A DNA stretch of 34,366 nt from Paludibacteraceae bacterium (lineage in GTDB: Bacteria; Bacteroidota; Bacteroidia; Bacteroidales; Paludibacteraceae). The notes beneath the pieces are model-generated. The model ran no database searches, was not told where the DNA came from, and worked only from the letters and a program-made list of their open reading frames with translations. The stretch is taken from contig JAKSMY010000018.1 in the NCBI GenBank assembly GCA_024400275.1, positions 1-34,366 of the forward strand, in the 5' to 3' direction. Both the position numbers and the translations under genes were made by a program. The number at the start of each line of letters is the position of its first letter. Position 1 is the first letter of the stretch. This document shows, piece after piece, positions 14,906 through 33,570 of this stretch.

Positions 14906-14941
14906 ATTAGCGGGTTTAACGAGTTTAACAGGTTTAGAGGT
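14906..14941. repeat. Degenerate 9-nt tandem array between rfbC and rfbD
   Basis: The plus strand reads attagcggg / tttaacgag / tttaacagg / tttagagg, filling the whole spacer from the rfbD ATG to the rfbC stop codon. It occupies the same kind of place as the 7-nt arrays. Confidence 0.65.
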
Positions 14942-15489
14942 TAAAAGGGACTATCAAAGTTTTTGAGCAAAGGATGTTTGGTGTCTTTATCGGACAAGAT
15001 ACGGTGCTCTTCCGGCACTTGCCAGTCAATGTGGAGGTCCGGGTCGGAAAGCAAGATACCGCCGTCTGCTTCGGGGTGGTAGAGATTATCACATTTATAC
15101 GTAAAGACAGCCTTCTCGCTCAACACACTAAAGCCATGTGCAAAGCCACGCGGGATAAAGAACTGACGGTGGTTCTCCTCTGTCAGTTCCACCGAGAACC
15201 ACTGACCGAATGTCTTGCTATCCTTGCGTAAATCAACTGCTACATCTAATACCTTACCCTGTGTACAGCACACCAGTTTGGCCTGCGTATAAGGCGGACG
15301 CTGGAAATGCAAGCCACGCACTACGCCGTAAGATGAGCAGGACTGGTTATCCTGCACAAAACGCGCAGTGATACCTGCTTCCTGATAACGCTGTTCGTTG
15401 TAGGTTTCTACGAAATAGCCCCGTGCGTCACGAAACAACTTGGGCTCCAGCACCAATAAACCTTCAATAGGTGTTTTAATTACTTCCAT
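14941..15489 (-). CDS. rfbC: dTDP-4-dehydrorhamnose 3,5-epimerase
   Basis: RfbC/RmlC turns dTDP-4-dehydro-6-deoxy-glucose into dTDP-4-dehydro-L-rhamnose in the cytoplasm. The 182-residue cupin shows the family lead-in LLVLEPKLFRDARGYFVETY, then FVQDNQSCSSYGVVRGLHFQ with the catalytic His in RGLHFQ, and later FIPRGFAHGFSVLSE. It is followed by rfbD in the order usual for rhamnose synthesis clusters and lies 14 nt after the outer-membrane protein gene. The product probably feeds O-antigen or capsule glycan. Confidence 0.95.
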   Translation of the reverse strand: MEVIKTPIEGLLVLEPKLFRDARGYFVETYNEQRYQEAGITARFVQDNQSCSSYGVVRGLHFQRPPYTQAKLVCCTQGKVLDVAVDLRKDSKTFGQWFSVELTEENHRQFFIPRGFAHGFSVLSEKAVFTYKCDNLYHPEADGGILLSDPDLHIDWQVPEEHRILSDKDTKHPLLKNFDSPF

Positions 15490-15503
15490 TATATTTCTAT
15501 TAC

Positions 15504-16706
15504 TTATTTGTCAAACATACCTCTCAAATATGCACCCCGTTTGTCGTGAACAAGTCCGTCCAGACTGAAGCGGACAATCAATTGCTGTTGGTGTTGCAGA
15601 CGTTTGGTGATATTATCGTAGTGCATATTCCAACTCATATAGCAATTAACAAAACTTGAACGATACAAGTAAGCAAATATATCGGTTCGGTTGTAGAAAG
15701 TGGCTTGATAGAACGGGTCACCCTGACACATCAGGCTGCCGATAGGCGTACCCAAATTGTCGGCATTACGAAGCGGTTGCAAATTATCGCCCACATAGGT
15801 GGTGTTCTTCAATCCCAAGAACCACCAATTGGCATACAGTTCAATCAACACGCCTTGCGGCTGGTATTTATCACCGTTCTTGCGGTCACGTGCAATACCG
15901 TAGATATAAGTTGCTTTCAGAGCCAGTGAATCCAACGGCGTGAGACGTGTCAAATCAAAGCCCACATGTGCTCCAAAATTAATATCATCGTATAGACTTT
16001 CTTTCTCGTGCAACTCAGGGTCTGCCGAACAAGCAGTGTGATTCATGTGTACCAATCCGCCCACGAAGAACCATTTATGCTGATACTGCCCGTCAAACAA
16101 AATACGGAACATCTCGCGACGGTGCCAGTCCAACGCACTACGCCAGTCGCACATAAACTCGGCAAAACCTCGTTTATCCTGATAGGTAATCAACGCACCC
16201 TGTATATTGGGGCGTGCATAGGCTATACTATCGTATTGCAGCCAATCGGGCATACTGAGAATACGATTCTCGTAGGGGATAGCACCCAATTGCAGGTTTA
16301 CCCCGTAATTGCTAAAATGGTAATACGCCGTGGGATCGACTTTGGCATTTCGCCACTCGCCGCCCAAAGGCTGCGTATAGCGCACACCGGCAATGAACTT
16401 ATGCGAACCGCCTATTCTGTCCTTAACACGGACACCGACTGTCGGCGACAAGCGGAAAGAGAAAAGCGTCTGAGGTATCTGGCAGTGGTCACCCAACTCG
16501 TAATACTCACGGTTATCGAAGTACGAGTCAAAATCCACATCGTAGATAAAGCGCACTTTCTTTGCCTCGCGTTCCGCCTCTTTGCGTTCATAAACGGTGT
16601 CCACAAATTCTTTCGGCTGCGTCTTGGCATAACGCAACCAGAAACCTTGCGCGTTCGCCATCAAAGGCAATAAAATAAGAATAATCAAACCACTATACTT
16701 TTTCAT
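15504..16706 (-). CDS. Putative outer-membrane beta-barrel protein, 400 aa
   Basis: The start MKKYSGLIILILLPLMANAQ is a signal peptide. The mature part begins with a charged segment (EFVDTVYERKEAEREAKK), then strands of alternating aromatic and polar residues typical of porin-like barrels (FSFRLSPTVGVRVKDR, KFIAGVRYTQPLGGEW, FGAHVGFDLTRL, VLIELYANWWFLGLKN, CYMSWNMHYDNI). I do not recognise a named family. An upstream TTG at 16742 would remove the signal peptide from the terminus, so I chose the ATG at 16706, which overlaps the end of phoH by 14 nt. Placement beside lipid A and rhamnose genes suggests an envelope role. Confidence 0.75.
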   Translation of the reverse strand: MKKYSGLIILILLPLMANAQGFWLRYAKTQPKEFVDTVYERKEAEREAKKVRFIYDVDFDSYFDNREYYELGDHCQIPQTLFSFRLSPTVGVRVKDRIGGSHKFIAGVRYTQPLGGEWRNAKVDPTAYYHFSNYGVNLQLGAIPYENRILSMPDWLQYDSIAYARPNIQGALITYQDKRGFAEFMCDWRSALDWHRREMFRILFDGQYQHKWFFVGGLVHMNHTACSADPELHEKESLYDDINFGAHVGFDLTRLTPLDSLALKATYIYGIARDRKNGDKYQPQGVLIELYANWWFLGLKNTTYVGDNLQPLRNADNLGTPIGSLMCQGDPFYQATFYNRTDIFAYLYRSSFVNCYMSWNMHYDNITKRLQHQQQLIVRFSLDGLVHDKRGAYLRGMFDK

Positions 16707-17646
16707 CTTCTTTCGGCATTTCTTTATTATAGGCTTTAACAATTTCTTTCACCAATGGGTGACGGACAATATCCTTATCCGAGAAAGTAATGCAACCTAT
16801 ACCCTCTATATCCTTAAATCGCTCAATAGCATCGCGCAGTCCGGAGCGTTGCGACATCGGTAAATCCACTTGCGTCAAGTCACCCGTCACAATCATCTTA
16901 CCGTTCATTCCCAGACGTGTCAGGAACATCTTAAGTTGCGATATGGTAGTGTTTTGCGCCTCGTCCAAGATAACCACGGCATCGGAAAGCGTACGTCCAC
17001 GCATAAACGCCAGCGGAGCTATTTGGATGATACCCTTTTCCATATATTCCTCCAACTTGTTTTGAGGAATCATATCCTGCAAGGCATCGTACAGCGGTTG
17101 CAGATAGGGGTCTATCTTGTCCCGCATATCCCCCGGCAGGAAGCCCAGTTTTTCGCCGGCCTCCACAGCGGGACGGCTCAATATGATCCGTTTGACTTCT
17201 TTGTTTTTGAGTGCCCTAACCGCCAGTGCTATCGCCGTGTATGTCTTGCCGCTACCGGCAGGACCTATTGCCAGCAACAGGTCATTATCTTCGTAAGCAT
17301 CTACCAACCGCTGCTGATTCAGACTGCGTGCCGTTATCATCTTACCGTTTACCCCGTGCAGAATGAGGTTGGCGGTGTGTTGCGGTGCCGGTTGTTCGCC
17401 ATGAAGTAACTGCAAGATTTGCACCTCAGTCAGCGCATTATGCTTTATGCAGAAATCTTCACACAGCCGCAACGACTGCTCAAATTTGGCAATCGCACTC
17501 TCCGAACCCGTCACCTTGATTTCATAACCCCGTGCCAATAGACGCACATCGGGGTGCTGGTCTTTCAGACAGTGCATATTACGATTATTCAAACCGTAAA
17601 AAGTAGCGGTGTCCAATGCCTCGTTTAGTTCGATAATTGCGTCCAT
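16693..17646 (-). CDS. phoH: PhoH-like ATPase
   Basis: PhoH proteins are cytoplasmic RecA-fold ATPases linked to RNA metabolism, often near ybeY. The 317-residue protein has an N-terminal KH-like part (RLLARGYEIKVTGSES), Walker A AIGPAGSGKT (127-135), Walker B VVILDEAQN (224-232) and the family motifs SRPAVEAGEKLGFLPGD and MIVTGDLTQVDLP. Its ATG overlaps the preceding HsdR_N-like gene by 22 nt. ybeY is not present here. Confidence 0.93.
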   Translation of the reverse strand: MDAIIELNEALDTATFYGLNNRNMHCLKDQHPDVRLLARGYEIKVTGSESAIAKFEQSLRLCEDFCIKHNALTEVQILQLLHGEQPAPQHTANLILHGVNGKMITARSLNQQRLVDAYEDNDLLLAIGPAGSGKTYTAIALAVRALKNKEVKRIILSRPAVEAGEKLGFLPGDMRDKIDPYLQPLYDALQDMIPQNKLEEYMEKGIIQIAPLAFMRGRTLSDAVVILDEAQNTTISQLKMFLTRLGMNGKMIVTGDLTQVDLPMSQRSGLRDAIERFKDIEGIGCITFSDKDIVRHPLVKEIVKAYNKEMPKEDEKV

Positions 17647-18035
17647 TCGGGTATATCTTGTAAGAATGTTATTTGTTGCCCTTCCACCCTGGCTACCACC
17701 ACTTCGGGGCCGTTACTCAGTATCAAATAGGGTACGTTAAACTGACGGTTATAAACGGCTATTTGGTCTAATACACGTTGGGTAAGGGACACGGATTCTG
17801 CTTTAAACTCAATAAGCACCAACGGCGTAAGGTCTTTGTTGTAGATAATGGCATCGGCTCTGCGTTTGGTAGCCAGTTGTACTTCCACGGCTATCCCCGA
17901 CTCCGGATAGTTGTATTGTTCCACCAGTTTATGCAGGAATTGCTGCCTTACCCACTCTTCCGGTGTCAGTCTAACATATTTCTTCCGCCAGTGGCAGAAT
18001 ATATATTGTTTATTATCCTTCGTTGTTACTTTCAA
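17625..18035 (-). CDS. HsdR_N-like (PD-(D/E)XK fold) small protein, 136 aa
   Basis: The sequence RKKYVRLTPEEWVRQQFLHK followed by a nuclease-like core is the type I restriction HsdR N-terminal-like family (HSDR_N_2) common as a stand-alone Bacteroidetes gene. D61 in RRADAIIYN and E76-x-K78 in VLIEFKAES form a PD-(D/E)XK triad, so it may be an active nuclease; no methylase or helicase is nearby. The frame contains no ATG: the only start is the TTG at 18035, immediately after the UAG of glnS and in the same frame. Homologs have about ten more N-terminal residues. Its target and role are unknown. Confidence 0.8.
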   Translation of the reverse strand: MKVTTKDNKQYIFCHWRKKYVRLTPEEWVRQQFLHKLVEQYNYPESGIAVEVQLATKRRADAIIYNKDLTPLVLIEFKAESVSLTQRVLDQIAVYNRQFNVPYLILSNGPEVVVARVEGQQITFLQDIPEWTQLSN

Positions 18036-19754: not shown

Positions 19755-19758
19755 ATCT

Positions 19759-19814
19759 CTTAATTCTTAATTCTCAATTCTCCATTCTCAATTCTCCATT
19801 CTCCATTCTACATT
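19759..19814. repeat. Heptamer array, 8 units, glnS leader
   Basis: Plus strand: cttaatt / cttaatt / ctcaatt / ctccatt / ctcaatt / ctccatt / ctccatt / ctacatt. The array fills the lpxA-glnS spacer; its last unit encodes the final Met codon and the UAG of lpxA, and its first ends 4 nt before the glnS ATG. Confidence 0.9.
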
Positions 19815-20581
19815 CCCTTAATAACGCCTCTTGGCGATTCTTTAATGAAATTAACAATCAAATCACGTTCAGCACTTTGTGGCATATCAGCCAGCACTTT
19901 CTCCACTGCTTGCGACATATTCAGTTTGGACATATATACCAAACGATATACCTGTTGAATGGTATCTATCTGCTCTTTGCTAAATCCACGGCGACCTAAG
20001 CCTACACTGTTGATTCCGCAGAATTGAATAGGATCCCGAGCAGCCATCACAAAAGGAGGTACGTCTTTATTAACGTGGCTGCCGCCCTGAATCATGACAT
20101 GCGAACCGATATGCGAGAACTGGTGTACCAACGTGCCGCCGCCGATAACGGCATATTCTTCTACCACGACTTCGCCGGCTAATTGTGTCGCATTGGACAT
20201 GATGACGTGGTCTTTTACCACCACATCGTGTGCCACGTGGCAATAAGCCATGATGAGGCAGTTATTACCCACGACGGTCTTGCCTTTGCTGGCTGTGCCG
20301 CGATGTACGGTAGAGCACTCGCGCAAGACGGTGTTATCGCCTATATACGTGTAAGTCAACTCACCTTGGAACTTCAAGTCTTGCGGTACAGCACCGACAA
20401 TGGCAGTCGGAAAAACGTGGCAGTTCTTACCGATACGTGTATGTTCACACACTGTGGCGTTGGCGTCAATCACAGTACCCTCACCTATTTCGACATCTTT
20501 GTCTATAAATGCGAACGGTCCCACTTCGACCGTTTCGTGCAGTTTGGCGTCCGGGTGGACGTAAGCTAATGGACTAATCAT
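19808..20581 (-). CDS. lpxA: UDP-N-acetylglucosamine acyltransferase
   Basis: LpxA transfers a 3-hydroxyacyl chain from acyl carrier protein to UDP-GlcNAc, the first step of lipid A synthesis. The 257-residue protein is a left-handed beta-helix with hexapeptide repeats (IGEGTVID, IGKNCHVF, VVGNNCLIM) and the catalytic His at 118 in AYCHVAHDVVV. The C-terminal helical part (FSKEQIDTIQQVYRLVY) is complete. It follows lpxC after only 16 nt, and its terminal Met codon and stop lie in a repeat array. The acyl donor is the product of acpP, also in the window. Confidence 0.96.
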   Translation of the reverse strand: MISPLAYVHPDAKLHETVEVGPFAFIDKDVEIGEGTVIDANATVCEHTRIGKNCHVFPTAIVGAVPQDLKFQGELTYTYIGDNTVLRECSTVHRGTASKGKTVVGNNCLIMAYCHVAHDVVVKDHVIMSNATQLAGEVVVEEYAVIGGGTLVHQFSHIGSHVMIQGGSHVNKDVPPFVMAARDPIQFCGINSVGLGRRGFSKEQIDTIQQVYRLVYMSKLNMSQAVEKVLADMPQSAERDLIVNFIKESPRGVIKGM

Positions 20582-20597
20582 ATATTTGTTGTTATTG

Positions 20598-21494
20598 TTA
20601 GCGTATTTTATCTATCAGTTGTTTGCAGCATGCCGTATTAAAGCCGTGTCCCGGACATTCAGCGATTATCTTGCCGCGTATATATACGCCCGATAAAGCC
20701 AGATCTCCAATTACATCCAGCAGTTTGTGCCGAGCCGGTTCATTGTCGTAGCGCAGGGGGGATAAATAGCCCAATTGACCGGCATCGATGGTAGGTTTCC
20801 CCATTTTCTTTGCCAAGCGGTTCATGCTCCACTGCCATATTTTTTTATCATATATAACCAGCGCATTGTCCAAGTCGCCTCCTTTTATCAGTCCCAAGTT
20901 GAGCAATGGTTTGATTTCTCTCAAGAAGCAGAACGTACGTGCGTCGGCTATCTCCGCAGCAAAGTTCTTCAAGTCGGTCAATTCGGCTGTCTGCTCGCCC
21001 AAGACGGGAGACGGATAGGACACTTTAACCTCTACTGCATATTCCTCAGCGGGTATGATACGCATACGGTTAAAGCCTTTGTTGTCAAACTCAACCGGTT
21101 CCGTCACCACCCACTCTTTGGCATCTGCTTCCTGTTCTTGTGTTCCTACCCTCCTAATCTGTTCCACGTACTGTTTGGCACTGCCGTCCAGAATAGGTAT
21201 TTCGGGAGCGTCCACTTCCACCAGCACATTGGTTATGCCCAAGGCATATAAAGCCGCCATCATGTGCTCTACCGTACTCACTTTCCACGCACCGTTTTCC
21301 AGAACAGTGCCGCGTGAGGTCTTAGTCACATATTGAGCCAATGCTTGATAAGTGGGGCGTTCCGGTAAATCGACACGACAAATACGAATACCTGTATTCA
21401 TTTCTGCCGGAAGGAATGTGGCATGAATCCAACCACCGGTATGTAAACCCGGTCCCTCCAACGTAAACGACTTATTGATGGTTTTCTGTTTCAC
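20598..21494 (-). CDS. lpxC: UDP-3-O-acyl-N-acetylglucosamine deacetylase, stand-alone
   Basis: LpxC is the zinc deacetylase that commits to lipid A synthesis. The 298-residue protein has GLHTGG near the start, zinc ligands H77 (STVEHMMAAL), H256 and D260 (RHKLLDVIGDL), and H283 (PGHGFNT). The start is GTG at 21494, supported by the normal VKQKTINKSFTLEG N-terminus; no in-frame ATG precedes it. In most Bacteroidetes LpxC is fused to FabZ (about 460 aa). Here it ends at residue 298 and lpxA begins 16 nt later, so FabZ is absent from this locus. Confidence 0.95.
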   Translation of the reverse strand: MKQKTINKSFTLEGPGLHTGGWIHATFLPAEMNTGIRICRVDLPERPTYQALAQYVTKTSRGTVLENGAWKVSTVEHMMAALYALGITNVLVEVDAPEIPILDGSAKQYVEQIRRVGTQEQEADAKEWVVTEPVEFDNKGFNRMRIIPAEEYAVEVKVSYPSPVLGEQTAELTDLKNFAAEIADARTFCFLREIKPLLNLGLIKGGDLDNALVIYDKKIWQWSMNRLAKKMGKPTIDAGQLGYLSPLRYDNEPARHKLLDVIGDLALSGVYIRGKIIAECPGHGFNTACCKQLIDKIR

Positions 21495-21496
21495 TC

Positions 21497-21545
21497 TCTC
21501 AACTCTAAACTGTAGCGCCTCCGGCGCGTCCTCTAAACTCTAAAC
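21497..21545. repeat. Heptamer array with 21-nt GTAG-hairpin insert, lpxC leader
   Basis: Plus strand: tctcaac / tctaaac, then a 21-nt insert (21511-21531), then tctaaac / tctaaac. The insert holds GTAG (21512-21515) and the inverted repeat gcgcc-tcc-ggcgc (21515-21527). The insert length equals three heptamers. The lpxD stop codon (21540-21542) lies inside the array and the lpxC GTG start borders it. Confidence 0.85.
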
Positions 21546-22541
21546 TAACTTCCTATACATCTCGGGCAACTTACGCATTACGGCATAGACGCGGCGGCAC
21601 AGACCGGCATCCATGGCCGGGCTGCCGAGGTACATACCGGGTTTGGTAATGCTGTTAGGCACGCCTGTTTGGGCTCCGAATATGCAGTTGTCGGTTATCT
21701 CTATATGTCCGGCAACGCCCACCTGCCCTGTCAGCATACAATGGTTGCCTATCGTGGTCGAACCGGCTATACCGACTTGTGAGCATAGAACGGATGATTC
21801 ACCCACAACCACGTTATGTGCCACCTGTACCAAGTTATCTATCTTGGTATTCTTTTTGATACGTGTCTCACCCATCATGGCGCGGTCCACGGTGGTATTG
21901 GCACCTATCTCCACATCGTCCTCGATAACGGCTATACCTATCTGTGGCACTTTATGGTAAACGCCCTGTGCATCGGGTTCAAAACCAAAGCCGTCTCCAC
22001 CGATAACGACACCGGCATGAAGGATACAGTTGGCACCCACTCTGCAATTATAATAGACCTTGACACCCGGGTACAGGACGGTGTTGTCGCCAATGACCGC
22101 ATTATCGCCCACATACACCTGCGGATATATCTGCACGCCCTTGCCCAAACGGACGTTTCTGCCGATATATGCCATGGCACCTACGTACGCATCTTCGGGC
22201 ACTTGCACCCCCTCGGCGATAAAAGCAGGTTGTTCGATACCTTGGCGCTTGGGGTTCAGCACCTCTGCCACGGCTTGCAGCAGTTGCGCCATTGCGGCGC
22301 GTGCGTTATCGACGAGGATAAGGGCCGCCTGTGTGTTGCCGTCAAAGGGGAGTGTTTTGGTTATCAGCACGACGGAGGCTTTGGTCTCTGCCAAGTACGG
22401 CAGATATTTCTCCTCACCCAAGAAGCACAAATCGCCCTCTTTGGCGGTTTCTAAGCCGGCTACATTATTTACTGTGCGATTGGCATCGCCTACTATCTCG
22501 CCGCCCAATATGGCAGCTATTTGTCCTGCACTAAATTCCAT
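21540..22541 (-). CDS. lpxD: UDP-3-O-acylglucosamine N-acyltransferase
   Basis: LpxD adds the second 3-hydroxyacyl chain in lipid A synthesis. The 333-residue protein has the N-terminal uridine-binding domain (residues 1-100, with [20 protein letters not shown]) and a hexapeptide-repeat beta-helix with the catalytic His at 242 in QVAHNVVVG. The C-terminal segment ([12 protein letters not shown]) is normal. The order lpxD-lpxC-lpxA on one strand is the expected Bacteroidetes arrangement. Its ATG is 6 nt after the stop of the HD-domain gene. Confidence 0.96.
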
Positions 22542-22546
22542 ATCTT

Positions 22547-22567
22547 TCTAAACTCTAAACTCAAACA
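22547..22567. repeat. Heptamer array, 2-3 units, end of HD gene and lpxD leader
   Basis: Plus strand: tctaaac / tctaaac / tcaaaca. It uses the same word as the array before lpxC 1 kb away and encodes the last residues (EFRV) and the stop of the HD-domain gene. Confidence 0.7.
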
Positions 22568-23807
22568 AATATCTTTTTTTTGGTTTGCGGGTCAGCGACT
22601 CCATGCTGAGTATCTCACTGGCAGACGCTATATCTTCCACGGTGCCGTTATTATAGAGAATATCAATAGAATCGTCTTTTTCCGAATAGGTACTATTGGT
22701 TGATATATGCTCCACAAAGAAATAGTGGGCATCTGCTTGGTCTATACCCAACGTGCCGGCATAATACGCAACACGCTCGGCTTTCTCTTCTTCCGTCAGC
22801 GGTGTATTCAACAAATGTCCCTTGTAAAGGCGACGATTGATAAACGCCTCGCTCAGCAGACGCAGCACTTTATCTTCGTGTGACATCCAACTCTTAATAG
22901 CACTAATCACATCGCTATCGTCCAACAAGGCATATTGCCGCACTGCCTCACTGCCTACGTAAAAATCTTTCTCTGATATATGGTTATAAAGGAAATACCG
23001 CAAAGCCGGACTGGCAAACAAAGTTTCCTTTCCACCGTGCATTGTGCATTGTCCACCGTCCACCGTCAACCGAGCAAGTTCTTTAGCTCGGCTCAACACA
23101 GCAATCAACAACTGCTCGGCAGCCACGCTGGTCTTATGCAGATAAACCTGCCAATACATCAACCTACGCGCCACAAGGAATTTCTCCACACTGTATATAC
23201 CTTTTTGCTCCACCACCAAACGGTCGTCCACCACATTCAGCATCTTCAGCAGGCGGTCGCTTGCCACACGCCCCTCTTGCACACCGGTAAAAAACGAATC
23301 ACGGCACAAGTAATCCATACGATCCACATCTAATTGACTACTAATCAGTTGGTGCAAGAAATGATGTTTATACTCGTCCTTGAAGATAGCAATTGCCAAA
23401 TCCAACCCTCCATGCAAGTCTTTATTGATTTGCTCCATCATCATCAGGCTTATTTCCTCATGCGTTATACCTTCCACCATCGTATGTTCCAGCACATGGG
23501 AGAATGGTCCGTGCCCTATATCGTGCAATAAGATAGCTATCTCAGCAGCCGTAGCCTCTTCTTCGGATATAGCCACCCCTTTTTGGCGCAGGGACGCAAT
23601 AGCTTCTTGCATCAGGTGCATGGCTCCGATGGAATGACTGAAACGTGTATGTACAGCACCCGGATAGACCACATTACTCAGCCCAAGTTGCTTGATTCGA
23701 TTGAGCCGCTGCACGTATGGATGTTGCAGCACGTCATATACCAAATCATTGGGTATAGTCAAAAATCCGAACACCGGATCGTTAATTATTTTACGTTTAT
23801 TCGGCAT
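22548..23807 (-). CDS. HD-domain phosphohydrolase (dNTPase-like)
   Basis: The 419-residue protein has the metal-binding HD motif: H57 in HTRFSHSIGAMHL, H95-D96 in AILLHDIGHGPFSH, and a later D in SQLDVDRMDYLCRDS. This is the HD phosphohydrolase group related to dGTP triphosphohydrolases and SAMHD1, common in Bacteroidetes before lpxD. Substrate specificity is not visible. Residues about 246-259 (LTVDGGQCTMHGGK) are encoded by six tandem 7-nt words lying between the conserved stretches RAKELA and ETLFASPALRYF, an in-frame insertion. It is the first gene after the promoter at 23825-23856, with a leader of about 11 nt. Confidence 0.9.
   Translation of the reverse strand: MPNKRKIINDPVFGFLTIPNDLVYDVLQHPYVQRLNRIKQLGLSNVVYPGAVHTRFSHSIGAMHLMQEAIASLRQKGVAISEEEATAAEIAILLHDIGHGPFSHVLEHTMVEGITHEEISLMMMEQINKDLHGGLDLAIAIFKDEYKHHFLHQLISSQLDVDRMDYLCRDSFFTGVQEGRVASDRLLKMLNVVDDRLVVEQKGIYSVEKFLVARRLMYWQVYLHKTSVAAEQLLIAVLSRAKELARLTVDGGQCTMHGGKETLFASPALRYFLYNHISEKDFYVGSEAVRQYALLDDSDVISAIKSWMSHEDKVLRLLSEAFINRRLYKGHLLNTPLTEEEKAERVAYYAGTLGIDQADAHYFFVEHISTNSTYSEKDDSIDILYNNGTVEDIASASEILSMESLTRKPKKRYLFEFRV
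23032..23073. repeat. Heptamer array, 6 units, inside the HD coding sequence
   Basis: Plus strand: ccaccgt / gcattgt / gcattgt / ccaccgt / ccaccgt / caaccga. 42 nt = 14 codons, so the frame is kept. Its words are the reverse complement of those in the arrays at 26368 and 33465. Confidence 0.9.
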
Positions 23808-23824
23808 GATTTCAAATTAGTGTG

Positions 23825-23856
23825 CAAAGATACAAAAAAAATTGCATATATGCAAA
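23825..23856 (-). promoter_or_regulatory. Promoter of the HD-lpxD-lpxC-lpxA-glnS gene chain
   Basis: Minus strand -33 TTTG (23853-23856), 20-nt spacer, -7 box TATCTTTG (23825-23832). A perfect 14-nt palindrome TTGCATATATGCAA (23842-23855) overlaps the -33 box and could be an operator. Predicted start near 23818. No other clear promoter was found between here and 13.3 kb. Confidence 0.75.
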
Positions 23857-23878: not shown

Positions 23879-25084
23879 TTATTGTTTCCACCAATCGTCC
23901 GCTGTTTTGGTAATTATACGTGCCAATTCGTTCATAACCATGCATTCGGGACGAGTACAAACATAATCCTTGCGATACTCATACTTCCAACAAGTGATTT
24001 GCAACAAGCGATCTTCGGCACAGGCATAGAAAGCCTTTCCATACGGTTTATACCGTTTACCGAAACCATTGTCACAGATTTCAATCACGGGCAATTGCTC
24101 ATCTAATAAGCGTTTGAGTATATTGCGTTCTTTCTCGCTGATGAAAGCCGACACGATGACCGCTCCAAGTCGGGCTTCCCGAAGGACAGCCTCCGCTTGC
24201 CGGTCAAAAAGATTCACATCTGCACGATGGCAAATAAGTGGCAACTTACGGCTCTTCAAAAGCAAAGATTGATTGCCGACATAATCTAAAAACAAACGCG
24301 TTGTCCTATCAGAATCCTGCTGAAGCAACTTCGGTTGTACATTCAACAGGGCGACCTCTAACGCATCCGGATTAGTACGCAGGTTGTAATCCCATTTCAA
24401 CCCTCCGGCAATCGCGTCAAGAGTCCAATTAGCAGAGTGCTGATTACGAACAATTGCAAATTGATTGCGCAGGTTACCTTTGATTATTCTACGCTCAGGA
24501 TTAGAACGGATATAAGCAATCTTGGTTTCGACATCTTCCTTTTCAATAGGGATAGTATCGTTATATCCCCTCACAAAGAGCGCGGGACCACGTTTACTCC
24601 CTCTATGATTCTTTTCTTCCCATTTAGGGTCACATTTCCCGTGCTCCACTGTTTGCTTCATCTCATGCCAAGGTAATCCAAGCACATCCCAATAACCATG
24701 CGTACACCCAATCATGAAACCTTTAATAATTTGTCCAAGATGCACATTGCTTTCAGGCGTTATATAAAGCAATCCATGAAAATGATCAGGCATAACCACA
24801 TTAGCAATAACCTGTACATCGGGATAGAACTGAGGAATCTGCTGCCAACATTGCTCTACATATTTGCCAACCTCCGTGTACTCTATCTCGAGATTTTCAA
24901 CGGTTTGGGTAGATACGTTATAACGTCCATGTATGGTGCTCAATACTTGGTGATGATCTCTGACATTCAAGGTAACAAAGAAATACCCCGCGGTATAATC
25001 CGCATCTGCAAGGCGATGCAACGCAGGCGACAGTTCCTGCTCGCTACGATCCATATTCCATTTCTGTTGATCTGTGTAGCGCAT
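23879..25084 (-). CDS. REP-associated-type HUH transposase fused to a Rossmann-like domain
   Basis: The N-terminal half (about 30-210) is a Y1/IS200-like HUH nuclease of the RAYT type: HFH at 101-103 in NVVMPDHFHGLLYI, a candidate catalytic Tyr at 174 in FVRGYNDTIPI, and YIRSNPERR at 191-199. The C-terminal half (about 265-401) is different: SLLLKSRKLPLICHR, GAVIVSAFISEKERNILKRL, LPVIEICDNGFG and FYACAEDRLLQITCWKYEY look like a DprA/SLOG-type Rossmann domain, met as a separate protein in Bacteroidales. No terminal repeats or partner transposase flank it. It lies 40 nt after the U32 gene, in the same direction. It may be domesticated; the fusion is its main oddity. Confidence 0.75.
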   Translation of the reverse strand: MRYTDQQKWNMDRSEQELSPALHRLADADYTAGYFFVTLNVRDHHQVLSTIHGRYNVSTQTVENLEIEYTEVGKYVEQCWQQIPQFYPDVQVIANVVMPDHFHGLLYITPESNVHLGQIIKGFMIGCTHGYWDVLGLPWHEMKQTVEHGKCDPKWEEKNHRGSKRGPALFVRGYNDTIPIEKEDVETKIAYIRSNPERRIIKGNLRNQFAIVRNQHSANWTLDAIAGGLKWDYNLRTNPDALEVALLNVQPKLLQQDSDRTTRLFLDYVGNQSLLLKSRKLPLICHRADVNLFDRQAEAVLREARLGAVIVSAFISEKERNILKRLLDEQLPVIEICDNGFGKRYKPYGKAFYACAEDRLLQITCWKYEYRKDYVCTRPECMVMNELARIITKTADDWWKQ

Positions 25085-25092
25085 GTTTTGGG

Positions 25093-25104
25093 GCGTTATA
25101 ACGC
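25093..25104. other. 12-bp perfect palindrome upstream of the HUH gene
   Basis: GCGTTATAACGC is perfectly symmetrical and ends 8 nt before the gene's ATG. It could be a regulator site or a DNA target of the encoded nuclease; the sequence alone does not tell. Confidence 0.35.
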
Positions 25105-25124
25105 TTTATAATTGTAGTAGATTA

Positions 25125-26387
25125 TTACTCCGACTTCATGATAAACAACTTATCCCCACGGCGGAGGGGTTTGGTTGTTTTGATAGCAAAAGCATGGCCC
25201 TGATAGACTGTCGGTTGCGGATTGCCGGGCTCGTCATGCAAGTCATGAGCCACCAACTCATACGCGCCGGTCGTCTCGCCCGTCACCAATAACTCATCGC
25301 CCTCCGTAATCTGCGGCACTGCTTCCAAGAAAAACTCAGCCACACCTATCTTCTTGAAATAGTCCGTACAACGCCCGGCATAGACTTTCTTGCGTGTAGC
25401 CTGCGAACCGTACTCGTGCGTCCACTCACCCATTTTCTGCCCCTGATAATAACCGTCCCAGAAACCACGATTAAAGACACGCGCCAGACGGGTGTTCCAA
25501 TCTTCTATCTTGGACAGAATGCCTTCTTGGGCGTATTCGCCTTTCTGCCACGCCTCAACGGCCTCTTTGTAGCAGCCGACAACGGTCTTGACATATTCGG
25601 GTCCGCGAGCGCGACCTTCTATTTTCAGCACCCGCACACCGGCATCCAGCATCTTATTGAGAAAACCGATTGTTTTCAGGTCCTTGGGGGACATGATATA
25701 TTGATTATCCACCTCCAATTCGAGGTCGGACTCTTTATCCTTAACTATATACCCGCGTCGGCACACCTGCATACAAGCCCCGCGATTGGCAGACGCTCCC
25801 AAGTTATTGAGCGACAAGTAACACTTGCCACTAACTGCCATACATAACGCGCCATGGCAGAACATCTCAATGCGGATGAGTTCGCCCTTGGGACCGCGTA
25901 TATCCTGCTCCTGTATATCCTTATAAATAGCCGCCACCTGAGTCATGTTCAGCTCGCGCGCCAAGACGACCACGTCTGCATATTGTGCATAGAAGCGTAA
26001 CGCCTCGGTATTGGCTATATTGAGTTGTGTGGAGAGATGTACCTCAACGCCCTGAGCGTGAGCATATTGCAGCACGGCTATATCGCTAGCGATGACGGCG
26101 GACAGTCCCGCCTGTTTGGCAGTATCCACTATCTGGCGCATAAGCGGCATATCTTCGGGGTACATAACCGTATTCAGCGTGAGGTAGGTTTTGACGTTGG
26201 CTTTCCGGCAGATAGCCACAATCTTACGCAAGTCGTCCGTGGAAAAATTGGCAGAAGAGCGTGCCCGCATATTGAGGTGCTCAATGCCGAAATAGACACT
26301 TGTAGTCCCTGCCTCAATAGCCGCAGCTAACGAGTCCCAACACCCCACAGGAGCCATAATTTCTATGGTAGACGATTGACAATGCAC
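25125..26387 (-). CDS. U32-family protein (TrhP/YegQ-like)
   Basis: The U32 signature is clear: IEMFCHGALCMAVSGKCYLS followed by NRGACMQVCRRGY, with cysteines that in the family bind an iron-sulfur cluster. The N-terminus IEIMAPVGCWDSLAAAIEAG matches family TIM-barrel starts. Members of this group (TrhP) make 5-hydroxyuridine at tRNA position 34; others are called peptidases. The 420-residue length fits. The frame has no ATG before the conserved IEIMAP start, so GTG at 26387 is used; that GTG and the following codons lie in a heptamer array. It begins 9 nt after the stop of asd. Confidence 0.88.
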   Translation of the reverse strand: MHCQSSTIEIMAPVGCWDSLAAAIEAGTTSVYFGIEHLNMRARSSANFSTDDLRKIVAICRKANVKTYLTLNTVMYPEDMPLMRQIVDTAKQAGLSAVIASDIAVLQYAHAQGVEVHLSTQLNIANTEALRFYAQYADVVVLARELNMTQVAAIYKDIQEQDIRGPKGELIRIEMFCHGALCMAVSGKCYLSLNNLGASANRGACMQVCRRGYIVKDKESDLELEVDNQYIMSPKDLKTIGFLNKMLDAGVRVLKIEGRARGPEYVKTVVGCYKEAVEAWQKGEYAQEGILSKIEDWNTRLARVFNRGFWDGYYQGQKMGEWTHEYGSQATRKKVYAGRCTDYFKKIGVAEFFLEAVPQITEGDELLVTGETTGAYELVAHDLHDEPGNPQPTVYQGHAFAIKTTKPLRRGDKLFIMKSE

Positions 26388-26395
26388 GATGCACG
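26368..26395. repeat. Heptamer array, 4 units, U32 gene start
   Basis: Plus strand: gtagacg / attgaca / atgcacg / atgcacg. It supplies the GTG start and first residues (HCQSS) of the U32 protein and lies just after the asd stop. It resembles the array at 33465-33492 over all four units. Confidence 0.85.
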
Positions 26396-26396
26396 G

Positions 26397-28639: not shown

Positions 28640-28674
28640 AGTAAAAAAAATAAAAATTAATGCTATTATAAAAC

Positions 28675-28706
28675 TACGAGTCCACAGTATTGGCCGCAGA
28701 CTCGTA
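28675..28706. terminator. Hairpin between acpP and fabF (partial terminator or processing site)
   Basis: tacgagtc - 16 nt - gactcgta is a perfect 8-bp stem. On the minus strand it is followed by GTTTTAT. It likely ends part of the acpP transcripts or stabilises the short acpP mRNA, giving more AcpP than FabF. Confidence 0.6.
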
Positions 28707-28726
28707 AACAAGTGATTCTTTGCAAT

Positions 28727-28963
28727 TTAAGCAATAGCTTTCTCAACATACGCTACGGCATCACCTACCGTGGAGATTTTCTGTGTATCCTCGTCCGGAA
28801 TAGTGATATTGAACTCTTTCTCAAACTCCATAATCAACTCCACCGTGTCCAACGAGTCTGCATTCAAATCAGCAGAGAAACTTGCTTCCATCGTAACTTG
28901 AGCCTCATCCACACCCAGTTTGTCAACAATGATGGCTTTTACTTTCGATTCAATTTCTGACAT
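28727..28963 (-). CDS. acpP: Acyl carrier protein
   Basis: The 78-residue acidic helical protein carries growing acyl chains on a phosphopantetheine attached to Ser 37 in the motif [15 protein letters not shown]. It supplies FabF next to it and the LpxA/LpxD acyltransferases 7-9 kb away. The ATG at 28963 lies about 39 nt after the predicted transcription start. Confidence 0.98.
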
Positions 28964-29008
28964 AATCTATAAATTTAAGTTAATAATGATTTTTTTCGAA
29001 ATTCGGTG

Positions 29009-29040
29009 CAAAATTACAAAAAGAATTTAACTTATGCAAA
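29009..29040 (-). promoter_or_regulatory. Promoter of acpP-fabF-asd
   Basis: Minus strand -33 TTTG (29037-29040), 20-nt spacer, -7 box TAATTTTG (29009-29016). Predicted start near 29002. Confidence 0.75.
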
Positions 29041-29074
29041 TTATTACACAAAAAAGTTTCTTTTTTCTATTATT

Positions 29075-30859
29075 TTAGAATTTTTTTAATATATCTTCAT
29101 CGGTCAATATTGACACGACCGTTTTTCCATCTTCGGTAAACCGGTAATTGTCCAACCGGAACAGTTTGTCCGTCAAATCAGCCATTTCCTGCTGCGTCAA
29201 GGGCTTACCGTATGGGATAGCGGACTCTTTAGCCATTACCAATGCTATCTGTTTCCGCCACTGTTCACGTACTTTCCGCCCTGTAGTTTCCACGGCGGCA
29301 ATGATATTTTCCAATGCCGTCACCGGATTTTTCTCACCCAACAAAACGGGCACACCGCTAATGCTGAAACTTTTCGGGTCTAACTGCTCTATGTCAAATC
29401 CGATATGACGCAATTCGCCCATCATATCCTGCACCAGAGTGACCTCGTCCTGCGGAACGCTGAGCACCTCCGGGAAAAGCAGTTGTTGAGATGTCATAGG
29501 AGCGTCACCCATCTGACGCATATACATATTATACAACACGCACACGTGCGCGCGGTGCTGGTCCACCATCATCAGTCCACCGTCTGTAGGCAGCAGCAGA
29601 TAGCGGTTGGCGTACTGATAGATAGGACCGGCGGCATATTCCCGTTCAAACAAGGGCTGCTGAACGGCATCCGGCACTGCCGACTGGGGAAGCGGAGCCG
29701 TATAAAGCGACTGCCAGTCCATATTCTGCACTTTCTTCTCCGATTGACGGAAAGGGTTATACGGAGCCGTTGCGTGCGAAGTAGATGGCGGCACAAGAGG
29801 TTTGGAACCCTGAGCCGGCATCTCCACATAACCGTCCCGATTAAAGTCCAACGACGGACTGACATTGAACTTGCCCAACGCCTCACGGACGGTTGCCATC
29901 AGGATTTGAAAAACAGGCTGCTCGTCCTGAAACTTAATCTCGGTCTTCGTCGGGTGGATATTCACGTCTATATTCTCGGGATTGACCTGCATATAGATAA
30001 AATAAGACGGATTGACCTCGGCCTGCAGCAAGCCCTGATAGGCGTTCATCACGGCCTTGTGGAAATAGGAGTGACGCATATAGCGTCCGTTCACAAAGAA
30101 ATACTGCTGTGCATTCTTGCCTGCCCCTTCCGGCTTGCCCACAAAGCCACGAATAGAAATCAAATCCGTATCCGATGCTATATCTACAAAATGGCTCGTA
30201 TAGGCCTGTTTCTGTCCCTTGCCGAACACAGCCTCTATACGCTGTTTCTCGGTTCCGGGCAATAATTCCATCAGCAACTCATCGTTGCTGACAAACGTGA
30301 ACTGCACCTTGGGATAGACCAACACGATACGGTAAAAATCAATCAGCAGATTGCGTAATTCCGTTTGGTCCGTTTTCAGGAACTTACGTCTGACGGGAAT
30401 GTTGTAGAACAAGTTTTTTACCTTTATGTTGGTTCCTTTGGCGCACGCGCAGGATTCCTGTTCCATCACCTGTGAACCATGAATCACCAAGCGTGTTCCC
30501 ACTTCGTCTTCCTCACGGCGGGTCTGCACCTCCACTTGCGCCACGGCGCATATACTCGCCAACGCCTCTCCGCGAAAACCCATCGTGGTCAATTGGAACA
30601 GGTCCGATGCTTCGCGAATCTTGCTGGTGGCATGCCGTTCAAAAGCCATCCGGGTGTCCGTGTCGCTCATGCCCTTGCCGTTATCTATCACCTGAAGCAA
30701 TGTCCTGCCTGCATCACGCACTATAACGTCCACTTTAGTGGCTCCGGCATCCAAGGAGTTTTCCACCAACTCTTTCAGGCAACTGGCGGGACGCTGAATC
30801 ACCTCGCCTGCCGCTATTTGATTGGCAACACTATCGGGTAGTAAATGAATGATGTCCAT
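29075..30859 (-). CDS. mutL: DNA mismatch repair protein MutL
   Basis: MutL couples mismatch recognition by MutS to strand removal. The 594-residue protein has the GHKL ATPase motifs: KELVENSLDAGA with the catalytic Glu at 30, VIDNGKGMSD (58-67) and GFRGEALAS (95-103), then a transducer domain, a proline/serine linker (about 340-410) and the dimerisation domain. At 434 the usual endonuclease motif DQHA(X)2E(X)4E reads DQHRAHVCVLYNMY, lacking the first Glu, so intrinsic nicking may be absent. The start is the ATG at 30859 (MDIIHLLPDSVANQIAAGEV, standard); codons further upstream lie in a heptamer array. Confidence 0.96.
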   Translation of the reverse strand: MDIIHLLPDSVANQIAAGEVIQRPASCLKELVENSLDAGATKVDVIVRDAGRTLLQVIDNGKGMSDTDTRMAFERHATSKIREASDLFQLTTMGFRGEALASICAVAQVEVQTRREEDEVGTRLVIHGSQVMEQESCACAKGTNIKVKNLFYNIPVRRKFLKTDQTELRNLLIDFYRIVLVYPKVQFTFVSNDELLMELLPGTEKQRIEAVFGKGQKQAYTSHFVDIASDTDLISIRGFVGKPEGAGKNAQQYFFVNGRYMRHSYFHKAVMNAYQGLLQAEVNPSYFIYMQVNPENIDVNIHPTKTEIKFQDEQPVFQILMATVREALGKFNVSPSLDFNRDGYVEMPAQGSKPLVPPSTSHATAPYNPFRQSEKKVQNMDWQSLYTAPLPQSAVPDAVQQPLFEREYAAGPIYQYANRYLLLPTDGGLMMVDQHRAHVCVLYNMYMRQMGDAPMTSQQLLFPEVLSVPQDEVTLVQDMMGELRHIGFDIEQLDPKSFSISGVPVLLGEKNPVTALENIIAAVETTGRKVREQWRKQIALVMAKESAIPYGKPLTQQEMADLTDKLFRLDNYRFTEDGKTVVSILTDEDILKKF

Positions 30860-30863
30860 GATT

Positions 30864-30905
30864 ATAGTTGATAGTTGACAGTTGATAGTTGACAATTGAT
30901 AGTTG
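30864..30905. repeat. Heptamer array, 6 units, mutL leader
   Basis: Plus strand: atagttg / atagttg / acagttg / atagttg / acaattg / atagttg. The array ends 4 nt before the mutL ATG and fills most of the gap to the upstream gene. Confidence 0.92.
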
Positions 30906-30914
30906 AGGAATCGA

Positions 30915-31148
30915 TTATTTCAGGAAGAAATAAAACAGCAGCCCCAACGCGAGCAAGGCTATCCAAAAGCCCAACTTGGATTTATTGCGTTGTCGTTGTG
31001 CGGACATGTTTTTTTCATGTTCCTCGCGGAAAGAGCCGTGATGAAGGCGCGCAAGTTTATCCTTGCGCGCCTCTTTCTCCTCATCGTAGTAAATGGGACG
31101 ATAATCCCATTCACGAGGTTTCGGAACTTTTGGAAAAAGAACCGACAT
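30915..31148 (-). CDS. Small conserved membrane protein, 77 aa
   Basis: A charged N-terminal part (PREWDYRPIYYDEEKEARKD) is followed by a single C-terminal membrane segment (LGFWIALLALGLLFYFFL). This looks like a small tail-anchored Bacteroidetes protein of unknown function. Its ATG overlaps the upstream stop as TAATG, so translation is coupled to the OmpA-like lipoprotein gene; mutL follows after 55 nt. Confidence 0.8.
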   Translation of the reverse strand: MSVLFPKVPKPREWDYRPIYYDEEKEARKDKLARLHHGSFREEHEKNMSAQRQRNKSKLGFWIALLALGLLFYFFLK

Positions 31149-32824
31149 TATTTCACGATAGCCAGGAAGGCCTCGTCCTCTGCAAATTTAGCAAATTCGA
31201 TATCCTTCTGGGCTTTTGCTTTCAATGTAGCACATTTTTCAACAGCCACTTTCAAGTTGCTATACACAGCCTCGCGGTCGTTGGTACGGGCACCGACGAT
31301 AGCCAGCAGATAAGCAGTCTTGGCATTGGGCTCTGCAATAGCGTTCAACGTCTTGCGAGCACCGGCGTAGTCCTCGTTGAGGATCTGTTGAATAGCGGCG
31401 TTGTTGTTAACCGTGTTACCATAAGCGGCTTTGGCTTTCTGGTAGTCACCCTTCATGGTGTAGTATGTTCCGCAAGCAGCAGCCATATCACCTTTGGTGC
31501 CGGCAGCCTTGCCCAGATACAGCTCAGCTTTGTCCAAATCATTGTCAGCCATAGCTGCCAAAGCGGCGTTGTAATTAACGTCAGCATCGTTTGGATTGAG
31601 TTGCAAAGCTTTCTCGTAGCAACGACGAGCCTCTGCTATATTGCCTGCTTTGAAATATTCCATTCCTAAGTTGTTCCAACCACGATAGTCAGCGGGGAAC
31701 ATCTCAGTTGCCTTTGCATAAACGGCTTTCTTGTCTTCTACCAACGTACCGCAGTAGAGCAGTTCCTCCACGTTGAGTTGAGCAGGATCGCTGCCGAACA
31801 GAGCAACGATTTCTTCGTCGGACTTACCAATCAGGTCGGTAGTCAGAATCATGCGGCTGCGACGCAAAGCGGGCAGAATCTCATCAGCAATGTTTTTGTA
31901 AACAGCGCTTAAGTTCTTAATTTGTGCCTCGCGCTCCTCAGGATCGCTGTACATACGCAATACGTTCAGAACAAGGTCTTTGTCTTGGATATTGCTCTCT
32001 TCCATTGCTTTTTGGAAGCCTTCCCAGTCTTCAGCCGTAACATCAGAAGCGATAGCGGCATCTACTTTATCTTTCTTCATTGCGTTTGCAAGGAACTTTT
32101 GAGCATTGGCTTGACGGTCGTTTGCCAATTTGGTATTCAACTCCAAACCACCTTCGGGGCTGGCATAACCAAGAACTTCCAATTTATTAATGGCTTTTTT
32201 CTCGTCGTTGTTAGCGTCTTTAACGGCAGCCTTGAAATCCTTAACGGCTTGGCTGTTGGTTTCAGAACTACGCAGTGCACTTTGTTGAAGCAGGAACTGG
32301 ATGTCAGCCTCTTGCATTTGTTGGATAACACGTTGGAACTTATCAGCAGCAACGTTAGCCTTCATACATGCAGCATCAGCCAATTTAGCAGTAGCAATAA
32401 TGCCGTCGGCAATCTTCAAATCAGGCTCATCGTAGGTTTTGTTGCCCTGACGAGCGTCGAAACGCAAATACAATTCGCATTGAGCCATTTCTTCGTTATA
32501 GTCAAAACTGATACTTTGGCTATACGAACCACCATTCTTGTAACTAACGGTTTTGCCGTTTTCTTTAACTTTTTCGCCCACGTAAACAACGGGTTCTCCG
32601 AGCAGTTCTTTACCGTTGTACTTCAGCACGGGAGTAACGGTCAAGACACCTTTTCTTGCAAATTTCTTTGCAGGGAAAGTACCGGTAATGGTTGCATTAA
32701 CTTTGTTACCCACTACCGTAAGGGGATTGGGGTTAACACTGATTTGATCGGGCTGAACAGGTTCGCCGCAAGATGTCAACAACGCCATAGCGAGGATTGA
32801 CACAAAAAAGATACTTTTTTTCAT
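31148..32824 (-). CDS. OmpA-like/TPR lipoprotein, 558 aa
   Basis: MKKSIFFVSILAMALLTSC is a lipoprotein signal with the lipid-bearing Cys at 19. A beta-rich domain follows (about 25-140), then an OmpA-family-like segment where LEVLGYASPEGG and LANDRQANAQKFL recall the peptidoglycan-binding core, then TPR repeats (about 378-480: WNNLGMEYFKAGNIAEARRC, YEKALQLNPNDADVNYN). It is probably anchored in the outer membrane and may tie it to peptidoglycan and partner proteins. The ATG at 32824 is chosen over an upstream start at 32875 because it opens the signal peptide. Confidence 0.85.
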   Translation of the reverse strand: MKKSIFFVSILAMALLTSCGEPVQPDQISVNPNPLTVVGNKVNATITGTFPAKKFARKGVLTVTPVLKYNGKELLGEPVVYVGEKVKENGKTVSYKNGGSYSQSISFDYNEEMAQCELYLRFDARQGNKTYDEPDLKIADGIIATAKLADAACMKANVAADKFQRVIQQMQEADIQFLLQQSALRSSETNSQAVKDFKAAVKDANNDEKKAINKLEVLGYASPEGGLELNTKLANDRQANAQKFLANAMKKDKVDAAIASDVTAEDWEGFQKAMEESNIQDKDLVLNVLRMYSDPEEREAQIKNLSAVYKNIADEILPALRRSRMILTTDLIGKSDEEIVALFGSDPAQLNVEELLYCGTLVEDKKAVYAKATEMFPADYRGWNNLGMEYFKAGNIAEARRCYEKALQLNPNDADVNYNAALAAMADNDLDKAELYLGKAAGTKGDMAAACGTYYTMKGDYQKAKAAYGNTVNNNAAIQQILNEDYAGARKTLNAIAEPNAKTAYLLAIVGARTNDREAVYSNLKVAVEKCATLKAKAQKDIEFAKFAEDEAFLAIVK

Positions 32825-32900
32825 AACTTTAACTAATAATTTAGCCGTTAATTGTAATGATTTTATATTTGTCAAATGACTTTACGCACAAAAGACGTTG

Positions 32901-32932
32901 CAAAGATACAAAGAATTTTTTGAATAGACAAA
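32901..32932 (-). promoter_or_regulatory. Promoter of the OmpA-like lipoprotein-mutL unit
   Basis: Minus strand -33 TTTG (32929-32932), 20-nt spacer, -7 box TATCTTTG (32901-32908). Predicted start near 32894, leader about 70 nt. Confidence 0.75.
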
Positions 32933-32949
32933 TTTTTTAGGGCAAAAAA

Positions 32950-32964
32950 TTGATAATTTATCAA
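32950..32964. promoter_or_regulatory. 15-nt palindrome upstream of the lipoprotein promoter
   Basis: TTGATAA-T-TTATCAA is a perfect palindrome 17 nt upstream of the -33 box, a place suited to an activator or repressor. The rest of 32965-33051 holds nothing I recognise. Confidence 0.35.
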
Positions 32965-33051
32965 ATATATGATATTTTTACGGCTGTGTGGGGCATTTAC
33001 GAATGATTTATTTTTGCTTGCCCGTATGTGCTAAACGAACGGAAGTTATCC

Positions 33052-33516
33052 TTATTGCAAATCGGGAACAAAGGGTTCATCTACCGTGCCTACCATATCG
33101 TCGTTGACAAAGGAGACAAACGGAGCCGTATAAATACGCATGAGTTTGACCGAGTAATAGCGGAGGGTCAGTGCGCCGGCGCCATGCGGGTCGGCTATAC
33201 GGATGACATAACTGTCCGGCACCTCATCCCAAGGAGTAGCCACTCCGACAATAGTCTGACCTGCTGCCACAGAAATCATGTCGGTGGCATCGGCATACGG
33301 GCGCAGCACTTCGGGCAGACGGATAATAGCCGTCATCGATTTATAACTCTCTGCATCTTCCGCCACTTTCCACTCCGGACGTGGTGTGTTGTCCGGAGTG
33401 AGAATAGTGCGTTCGGTTTTCTGCTTGCAGCCAAGCATTACTATCGCGATAATCGCGATAATGGATTGACGGTTGACAATGCACAATGCACGATTAAATA
33501 TTTTTTTCATGTTCAT
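33052..33516 (-). CDS. Small lipoprotein, 154 aa, unknown function
   Basis: The protein has an unusual signal peptide: MNMKKIFNRALCIVNRQS, a hydrophobic core IIAIIAIVMLG and a lipobox Cys (MLGC). Residues about 9-18 (RALCIVNRQS) are encoded by a heptamer array, and the core IIAIIAI by a 9-nt tandem pair. The mature part (about 120 residues) is beta-rich and unfamiliar (RPEWKVAEDAESYKSMTAII, ISVAAGQTIVGVATPWDEVP). A second ATG at 33510 (MKK) may be the true start. Confidence 0.7.
   Translation of the reverse strand: MNMKKIFNRALCIVNRQSIIAIIAIVMLGCKQKTERTILTPDNTPRPEWKVAEDAESYKSMTAIIRLPEVLRPYADATDMISVAAGQTIVGVATPWDEVPDSYVIRIADPHGAGALTLRYYSVKLMRIYTAPFVSFVNDDMVGTVDEPFVPDLQ
33465..33492. repeat. 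Heptamer array, 4 units, inside lipoprotein signal-peptide coding
   Basis: Plus strand: attgacg / gttgaca / atgcaca / atgcacg. It is closely similar to the array at 26368-26395, 7 kb away, and shares words with the one at 23032-23073 in the other orientation. Confidence 0.88.
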
Positions 33517-33521
33517 AACTT

Positions 33522-33570
33522 CTTTTATCTGTTATCTTTTATCTTTTACCTGTTATCTGTTATCTGTTAC
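33522..33570. repeat. Heptamer array, 7 units, between surface protein and lipoprotein genes
   Basis: Plus strand: cttttat / ctgttat / cttttat / cttttac / ctgttat / ctgttat / ctgttac. The last unit contains the stop codon (33567-33569) of the upstream surface protein; the first ends 5 nt from the lipoprotein ATG. Confidence 0.92.

Follow-up and report, generated by a model that had tools for sequence, protein, structure and literature searches.

Tandem arrays of 7-nt units are already known from bacteria. In the portion of MacGregor 2015 drawn on here (PMC4679880), TAACTGA repeats are described from Beggiatoaceae, cyanobacteria and five Bacteroidetes as tandem, mainly intergenic units that often lie near starts and vary by indels in 7-nt steps, with long mixed heptamer assemblages in some Bacteroidetes; the same portion cites Mrazek 2007 for the dominance of 7-nt units in heptanucleotide long simple sequence repeats (LSSR), for which slippage and a polymerase footprint were proposed. 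Here we analyse a 34,366-nt stretch (the window) of a Paludibacteraceae genome (contig JAKSMY010000018.1), together with related Bacteroidales, and describe degenerate heptamer arrays that are respelled at orthologous sites and include a bounded polar element of about 31 nt. Cyanobacterial short tandemly repeated repetitive sequences (STRR) are said to belong to the same class of heptanucleotide arrays as LSSR. The arrays described here share with this class tandem 7-nt units far above chance and a location mainly outside genes, and differ from it in that their units are degenerate and that one subfamily is a bounded dispersed element. Whereas the TAACTGA system, as presented in the portion of PMC4679880 used, is built on one fixed word, the present arrays use many words, partly genome-specific and respelled at orthologous sites. 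TAACTGA dimers were absent from 250 loci and, with one mismatch allowed, from the window, so membership of that family was rejected. The initial annotation knew of no named element that matched, which was too strong, given the heptanucleotide arrays described in that source, five Bacteroidetes included. What is new is the degenerate, respelled form and the bounded polar unit; no description of degenerate arrays in Bacteroidales or of the 31-nt element was found in the literature titles and abstracts searched, a search that left subscription journals largely uncovered.

The arrays form a genome-wide population with a 7-nt step and an 11-nt minority, far above chance, located mainly at gene junctions and also in some genes. 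The Asd protein of the window has matches in Bacteroidales, the best being in L001, a locus of a Paludibacteraceae metagenome-assembled genome (MAG; 90% identity), and the genome of L001 (G001) was the nearest relative used, sampled over 391 kb and later 0.71 Mb. Further samples comprised 400 kb of G002, 0.42 Mb of G135 (the genome of locus L018) and several smaller genome samples. Self-match segments were counted at a fixed lag, with dinucleotide shuffles as controls and a threshold score of at least 12 in genome samples; gene limits in the window and its relatives were set by a simple codon-score caller. At lag 7, the 391 kb of G001 contained 63 segments and the 400 kb of G002 contained 66, whereas three shuffles yielded 0.0 per set. 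Lags 14 and 21 follow; lag 11 gave 23 segments in G001 and 12 in G002, and lags 8 and 9 gave 13 and 18 in G002. Eighty asd loci contained 102 lag-7 segments versus 0 in one shuffle, and the G135 sample 56 in 0.42 Mb (a count without a shuffle baseline). A rough search with an AAT pattern found matches in 112 of 120 same-family genomes, with counts from 0 to 1,867 on both strands that give a rough range only, because the backward control is itself a heptamer pattern. Co-directional spacers carry 0.92 (G001) and 0.90 (G002) arrays per kb and genes 0.08 and 0.06, an 11- to 15-fold difference. The second degenerate class, with an 11-nt step, amounts to 42 segments in 0.71 Mb of G001, 34 of them outside called genes. 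Examples of this class lie at L087 2799–2886 and L122 18608–18662.

Array differences can amount to whole units, and at an orthologous site an array may be found, missing or spelled with other words. At the asd–U32 junction an array (score at least 9) was found in 11 of 27 loci, with 10 distinct words, in windows that vary in length and with 4 of the 11 scores at or below 10.5; 3′ of mutL, 12 of 26 loci carry an array, with six words. The background for both junctions is 27 arrays in 3,889 random 90-nt windows. Between G126 and G127, which are about 89% identical over the locus, seven of the eight usable G126 arrays could be compared. One shows a 21-nt (three-unit) difference, two have moved variant units, one is replaced by other words and one lies in a diverged region. 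Array replacements were also seen in alignments from other clades.

The words are partly genome-specific. Identical majority words make up 4.8% of array pairs within G001, 5.7% within G002, 45% within G018, 4.0% within G126 and 3.2% within G019, versus 1.1% between genomes and 0.3% for letter-permuted G001 words. In G001 (5.62 versus 3.43–3.68 bits), G002 (5.39 versus 3.15–3.30 bits) and four smaller samples, the words have a common skeleton above that of a column-permuted null. A single skeleton for all species was rejected, as the excess is small once species are mixed (3.59 versus 2.91–3.12 bits). A general polarity of words was likewise rejected: most transitions are reversible, and the sole fixed order is that of GAC-type before TGCAC-type words.

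This order belongs to the words fitting RRTKSAC, which the initial annotation had taken as one group and which resolve into the polar unit (RRTKGAC)2(RATGCAC)2GAT, of about 31 nt. GAC-type words precede TGCAC-type words by 27:0 in 0.71 Mb of G001 and by 3:0 in the window; the order was found neither in the G002 sample (400 kb) nor in 77 further asd loci. A single L018 match to the ordered unit was discarded, as it looks like chance in conserved coding DNA. Whole-genome counts of RRTKGACRATGCAC are 66 in G001 (35 forward, 31 reverse; backward control 0) and 49 in G135; the other 60 genomes of the genus sample reach at most 8, and no copy was counted in 36 of them. Eighteen of 30 polar copies have 2+2 heptads, and the 30 are distributed over spacers (16), genes in sense (8) and genes in antisense (6). 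Flanks were analysed in forty-one 2+2 copies (16 from G001, 2 from the window and 23 from G135), found with a pattern that fixed the inner letters and not the flanks. The copies are followed by GAT (0.73, 0.68 and 0.93 at the three positions) and preceded by C (0.56), and no further flank consensus was found in the 41.

Sixteen of 65 polar sites had usable flanks for comparison with G135. Two of these (L240 11357 and L018 1153, the latter being the single L018 match discarded above) were chance-like matches in conserved coding DNA and were left out of the counts. Six rows (five sites) are shared, and at two of the five sites the element is interrupted by other DNA in one species; six rows (four sites) have different words at the site; and in two the element is absent. 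At one swapped site (L250 versus L135) one species has the polar element and the other ACAGATA words, in what reads like the kdsB coding region. At L018 ~3425–3460 and L134 ~2228, other DNA, partly hairpin-like, splits the polar element at the AAT-GCAC joint in one species of the pair.

Polar copies also enter conserved genes. In the window, the HD-domain gene (22548..23807, minus strand; open frame of 419 aa, Pfam HD and HD_assoc_2) carries a copy of 3+2 heptads in sense and in frame at 23037..23071 (minus strand; ordered-word search and homologue alignment). The HD protein has gained a net 12 residues from it, an insertion missing in all 37 other aligned homologues (38 of 120 listed homologues were aligned, the window included). 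Four HD homologues have a different adjacent insertion, so the loop tolerates changes in length. In the sense copies inspected (HD; U32 and lpxD of L001) the frame reads LT(V/M)D..QCT.

More generally, 26 of 63 arrays in G001 and 21 of 66 in G002 lie within called genes. In three samples of 23, 17 and 15 in-gene arrays, stops per 7 nt number 0.04, 0.24 and 0.15 in sense and 0.55, 0.60 and 0.47 in antisense. Running counter to this stop-free trend, 4 of 17 and 2 of 15 arrays have at least 0.6 sense stops, perhaps through wrong gene calls. Twenty-eight of 138 in-gene arrays start within the first 25 codons, where 10.4 are expected from gene length; these cases are not all independent, because a single gene beside mutL contributes six orthologues to the 28; without these the count is 22 of 132. 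By eye, about 19 or 20 of 27 N-terminal cases resemble signal peptides, and all six mutL-side loci, with four word types, read as lipoprotein leaders. In another clade, an array has been gained inside a gene at L013 13913.

Our favoured account, which we regard as evenly balanced, combines 7-nt-step slippage with template switching between arrays, the products being kept where they are tolerated. Polymerase slippage would make and remodel arrays, and short-homology template switching or conversion would use other arrays of the same genome as template. Such array-to-array copying would keep the step, homogenise units, spread genome-specific words and allow an array of one family to be replaced in place by another family; within this lineage, GGTTGAC GGTTGAC AATGCAC AATGCAC GAT would have become a stable copied unit. 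Selection would then filter the places: junctions, where the array often supplies the upstream stop, loops with a stop-free frame, and signal peptides, in which T-rich heptamers would encode hydrophobic residues. A regulatory role would be unnecessary. The initial annotation had raised the possibility of slippage-built leaders; the three-unit difference and the moved variant units support this for arrays other than the polar element, but slippage alone does not explain why words differ at orthologous sites.

Several observations weigh against this account. Copying from array to array is deduced and was not directly seen. Two of the seven compared G126 arrays are unchanged in G127, and word identity within genomes shows no increase in G106 (0%) and hardly any in G089 (1.3%). 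Complex four-word strings are common to 2 array pairs versus 6.5 under a Markov null, which speaks against block copying as a general rule, and block dispersal in that general form was rejected. No array is present in relatives at the place of the HD insertion, and template switching would therefore need a first landing without homology. The Y1 transposase domain Y1_Tnp (PF01797) was found in 19 of 24 array-rich versus 50 of 96 other genomes (p 0.02, uncorrected for genome size and kinship), which leaves room for a Y1 contribution. A wider formulation seems to us bold and rather improbable: that a hitherto unrecognised kind of DNA synthesis, advancing in fixed steps of 7 nt (and 11 nt), writes and overwrites arrays at reusable sites and has yielded an exceptionally small, non-palindromic dispersed element of four heptads (~31 nt), which enters coding genes with no detectable transposase or reverse transcriptase. 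With a bounded dispersed unit, sites that are present, absent or respelled and a strong step-length signature, heptamer repeats become a testable evolutionary system. Arrays turn into loops and signal peptides of conserved proteins, they show one source of new coding sequence, and they offer a way to ask what makes bacteria favour duplications in steps of 7 nt.

Among the alternatives, the polar element could be a true miniature mobile element with a dedicated enzyme, some other arrays perhaps being its amplified or decayed relics, which we consider unlikely though worth keeping in view. The initial annotation's suggestion of a dispersed mobile repeat finds support for the RRTKSAC group, which is polar, bounded, found in both orientations (66 + 49 copies), present or absent between relatives, and also found in genes. 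Against such a miniature mobile element, the polar consensus is non-palindromic, with no terminal inverted repeats and no stable fold (fold z 0.22), and no target-site duplication was found above control (a 2–3-nt flank repeat in 2 of 41 copies, control 4%), features that also set it apart from miniature inverted-repeat transposable elements; PF01797 was not found in G001; and the words of other arrays in these genomes are quite different. Rickettsia palindromic elements are short in-frame repeats inside conserved protein genes, longer than 31 nt and palindromic. The polar element resembles them in that 14 of 30 copies lie in called genes and the HD insertion is in frame, and differs in being about 31 nt long, non-palindromic and built of heptads.

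Somewhat less probable again is slippage that is purely local, with a chance seed in a spacer, 7 nt as the preferred slip length and location reflecting tolerance only. Whole-unit differences with local homogenisation, the enrichment in spacers and the reversibility of most word transitions all suit this view. It is already strained by the polar element, in which two very different words stand in fixed order at dozens of sites, and it does not account for families swapped at the same site or for within-genome word sharing above that of letter-permuted words (4.8% versus 0.3% in G001).

We give little credence to the possibility that start-proximal arrays are regulatory leaders, adjusting translation through binding of a protein or the ribosome, a role put forward for TAACTGA repeats in the portion of PMC4679880 used here. 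At co-directional junctions, arrays lie within 10 nt of the start, or overlap it, in 14 of 28 cases in G001, 14 of 37 in G002 and 37 of 63 in the window and other asd loci, but the upstream stop is approached or overlapped as often (20 of 28, 25 of 37 and 31 of 63), and short spacers alone could cause this. Related species use different words at one and the same junction, and arrays are also found in gene interiors, so that the initial annotation's idea of arrays serving a protein or RNA that steps by 7 nt finds no support.

Least probable of all is that a dedicated transposase of the Y1 or REP-associated tyrosine transposase (RAYT) type, or a reverse transcriptase, makes the arrays: the excess of Y1_Tnp in array-rich genomes, the GTAG-tagged hairpins within some arrays, a weakly RAYT-like frame in the window and the presence of the reverse transcriptase domain RVT_1 in array-rich G019 and G089 would fit, but searches for Y1_Tnp gave nothing in G001 or in the array-rich genomes G018, G050, G082, G092 and G098, and RVT_1 went undetected in six of the eight genomes rich in arrays or in the element (G001, G135, G002, G018, G106 and G050), with the reservation that MAGs may be incomplete, while RVT_1 is present in two of four array-poor genomes (G053 and G032). 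Neither domain was detected in G001, G018 or G050. On these grounds neither Y1 transposases nor RVT_1 reverse transcriptases seem to be needed, and both were set aside as required agents. The frame concerned (23879–25084, 401 aa) has a RAYT-like hit in NCBIfam that is weak (33 bits against a cut-off of 80), and in Pfam it has no hit even at E 1; it is 96% identical in L018 and was not found in the L001 locus.

One array of the window is a composite in which CTCTAAA heptamers surround a GTAG-tagged GC hairpin (21497..21546, no strand assigned, lpxD–lpxC spacer; fold z −3.1, stem 21515–21527). Fifteen pattern copies of this type (13 in G001, 1 in G135 and 1 in the window) were found in 0.71 Mb of G001, 0.42 Mb of G135 and the window, of which the copy at L083 8286 of G001 is probably chance. 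A terminal stem of at least 4 bp is present in 11 of the 15, with seven different arms, versus 3.9% of shuffled inserts. GTAG-tagged GC hairpins with changing stem and constant CTCTAAACT flanks are seen at 21507–21533 of the window and in L082, L086, L088 and L139 of G001, and may possibly represent a Bacteroidales family of repetitive extragenic palindromes (REPs). Compared with the GTAG-tagged REPs and the RAYT-mobilised REPINs, as presented in the parts of PMC3733652 and PMC3116915 drawn on, the composite is alike in its GTAG tag, short GC stem and 3-nt loop. It differs in its embedding in heptamers and its variable stem, and no PF01797 protein was found in G001. The combination of palindrome and GTAG that marks REPINs is found in the composites with a stem of at least 4 bp and not in the non-palindromic 31-nt element.

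All eight heptamer arrays listed in the initial annotation exist, but only four stand out alone from 60 shuffles of the window (best lag-7 score 10.5): those at 19758 (38.5), 33521 (31), 30864 (21) and 23037 (19). The other four places (21496/21531, 22547, 26371 and 33476) score 7 to 9.5, not significant alone; 26367 and 33464 were recognised as copies of the dispersed polar element and 21497 as a copy of the composite. Nor do all lie at junctions, since the 23037 copy is inside the HD-domain gene and the 33464 copy falls within a called 154-aa gene, at its 5′ end; four of the eight (19758, 21497, 26367 and 33521), and not six, fill same-strand spacers by our gene calls. The array at 19758..19815 (minus strand; AATTGAG, AATGGAG and AATTAAG words in sense, also in Tandem Repeats Finder rows) fills the lpxA–glnS spacer, and that at 33521..33573 (minus strand; ACAGATA, AAAGATA and ACAGGTA in sense) the spacer before the 154-aa gene. 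A short AGTTTAG array before the lpxD start (22547..22566, minus strand; score 9.5, identified by alignment with L001) encodes the last HD residues and the stop codon; L001 has a longer array with other words in the same place. The polar copy at 26367..26394 (plus strand, 2+2; ordered-word search and relatives' alignment) fills the asd–U32 spacer, is common to L001 and has another array in its place in L018. That at 33464..33494 (plus strand, 2+2 plus GAT; ordered-word search and site comparison) lies antisense in the N-terminal region of the 154-aa gene and is absent in G135 (L231). Directly upstream of the mutL start, TCAACTA and TCAACTG words in sense (30864..30906, minus strand; alignment) occupy only the start-proximal end of a spacer of ~290 nt and are absent in L001. 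The 9-mer array noted near 14906 is marginal (14907..14936, no strand assigned, rmlC–rmlD spacer; lag-9 score 11, shuffle maximum 10.5). The 11-mer array noted near 5833 is weak (5843..5876, no strand assigned) and not significant alone (lag-11 score 10.5, shuffle maximum 11.5), although it resembles the period-11 class that is real in G001.

Minus-strand housekeeping genes make up most of the surroundings of the window arrays: glnS, lpxA, lpxC, lpxD, the HD-domain gene, the U32 peptidase gene, asd, a ketoacyl synthase gene and mutL. LpxC is fused to FabZ in many Bacteroidales; in the window (20598–21494) it is a stand-alone open reading frame of 298 aa. Elsewhere, heptamer arrays lie directly upstream of promoter-like sequences at L129 12330–12600, L129 17480 and L089 8150–8520, where TTTG and TATCTTTG look like what we take to be the Bacteroidetes promoter motif. 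Longer dispersed intergenic modules (133 nt, 88%) occur at L130 5200–5560 and L135 230–620 with different heptamer arrays aboard. At its left end (1–419), the window holds a 171-bp tandem repeat of 2.5 copies with 97% matches, which extends to the window end.

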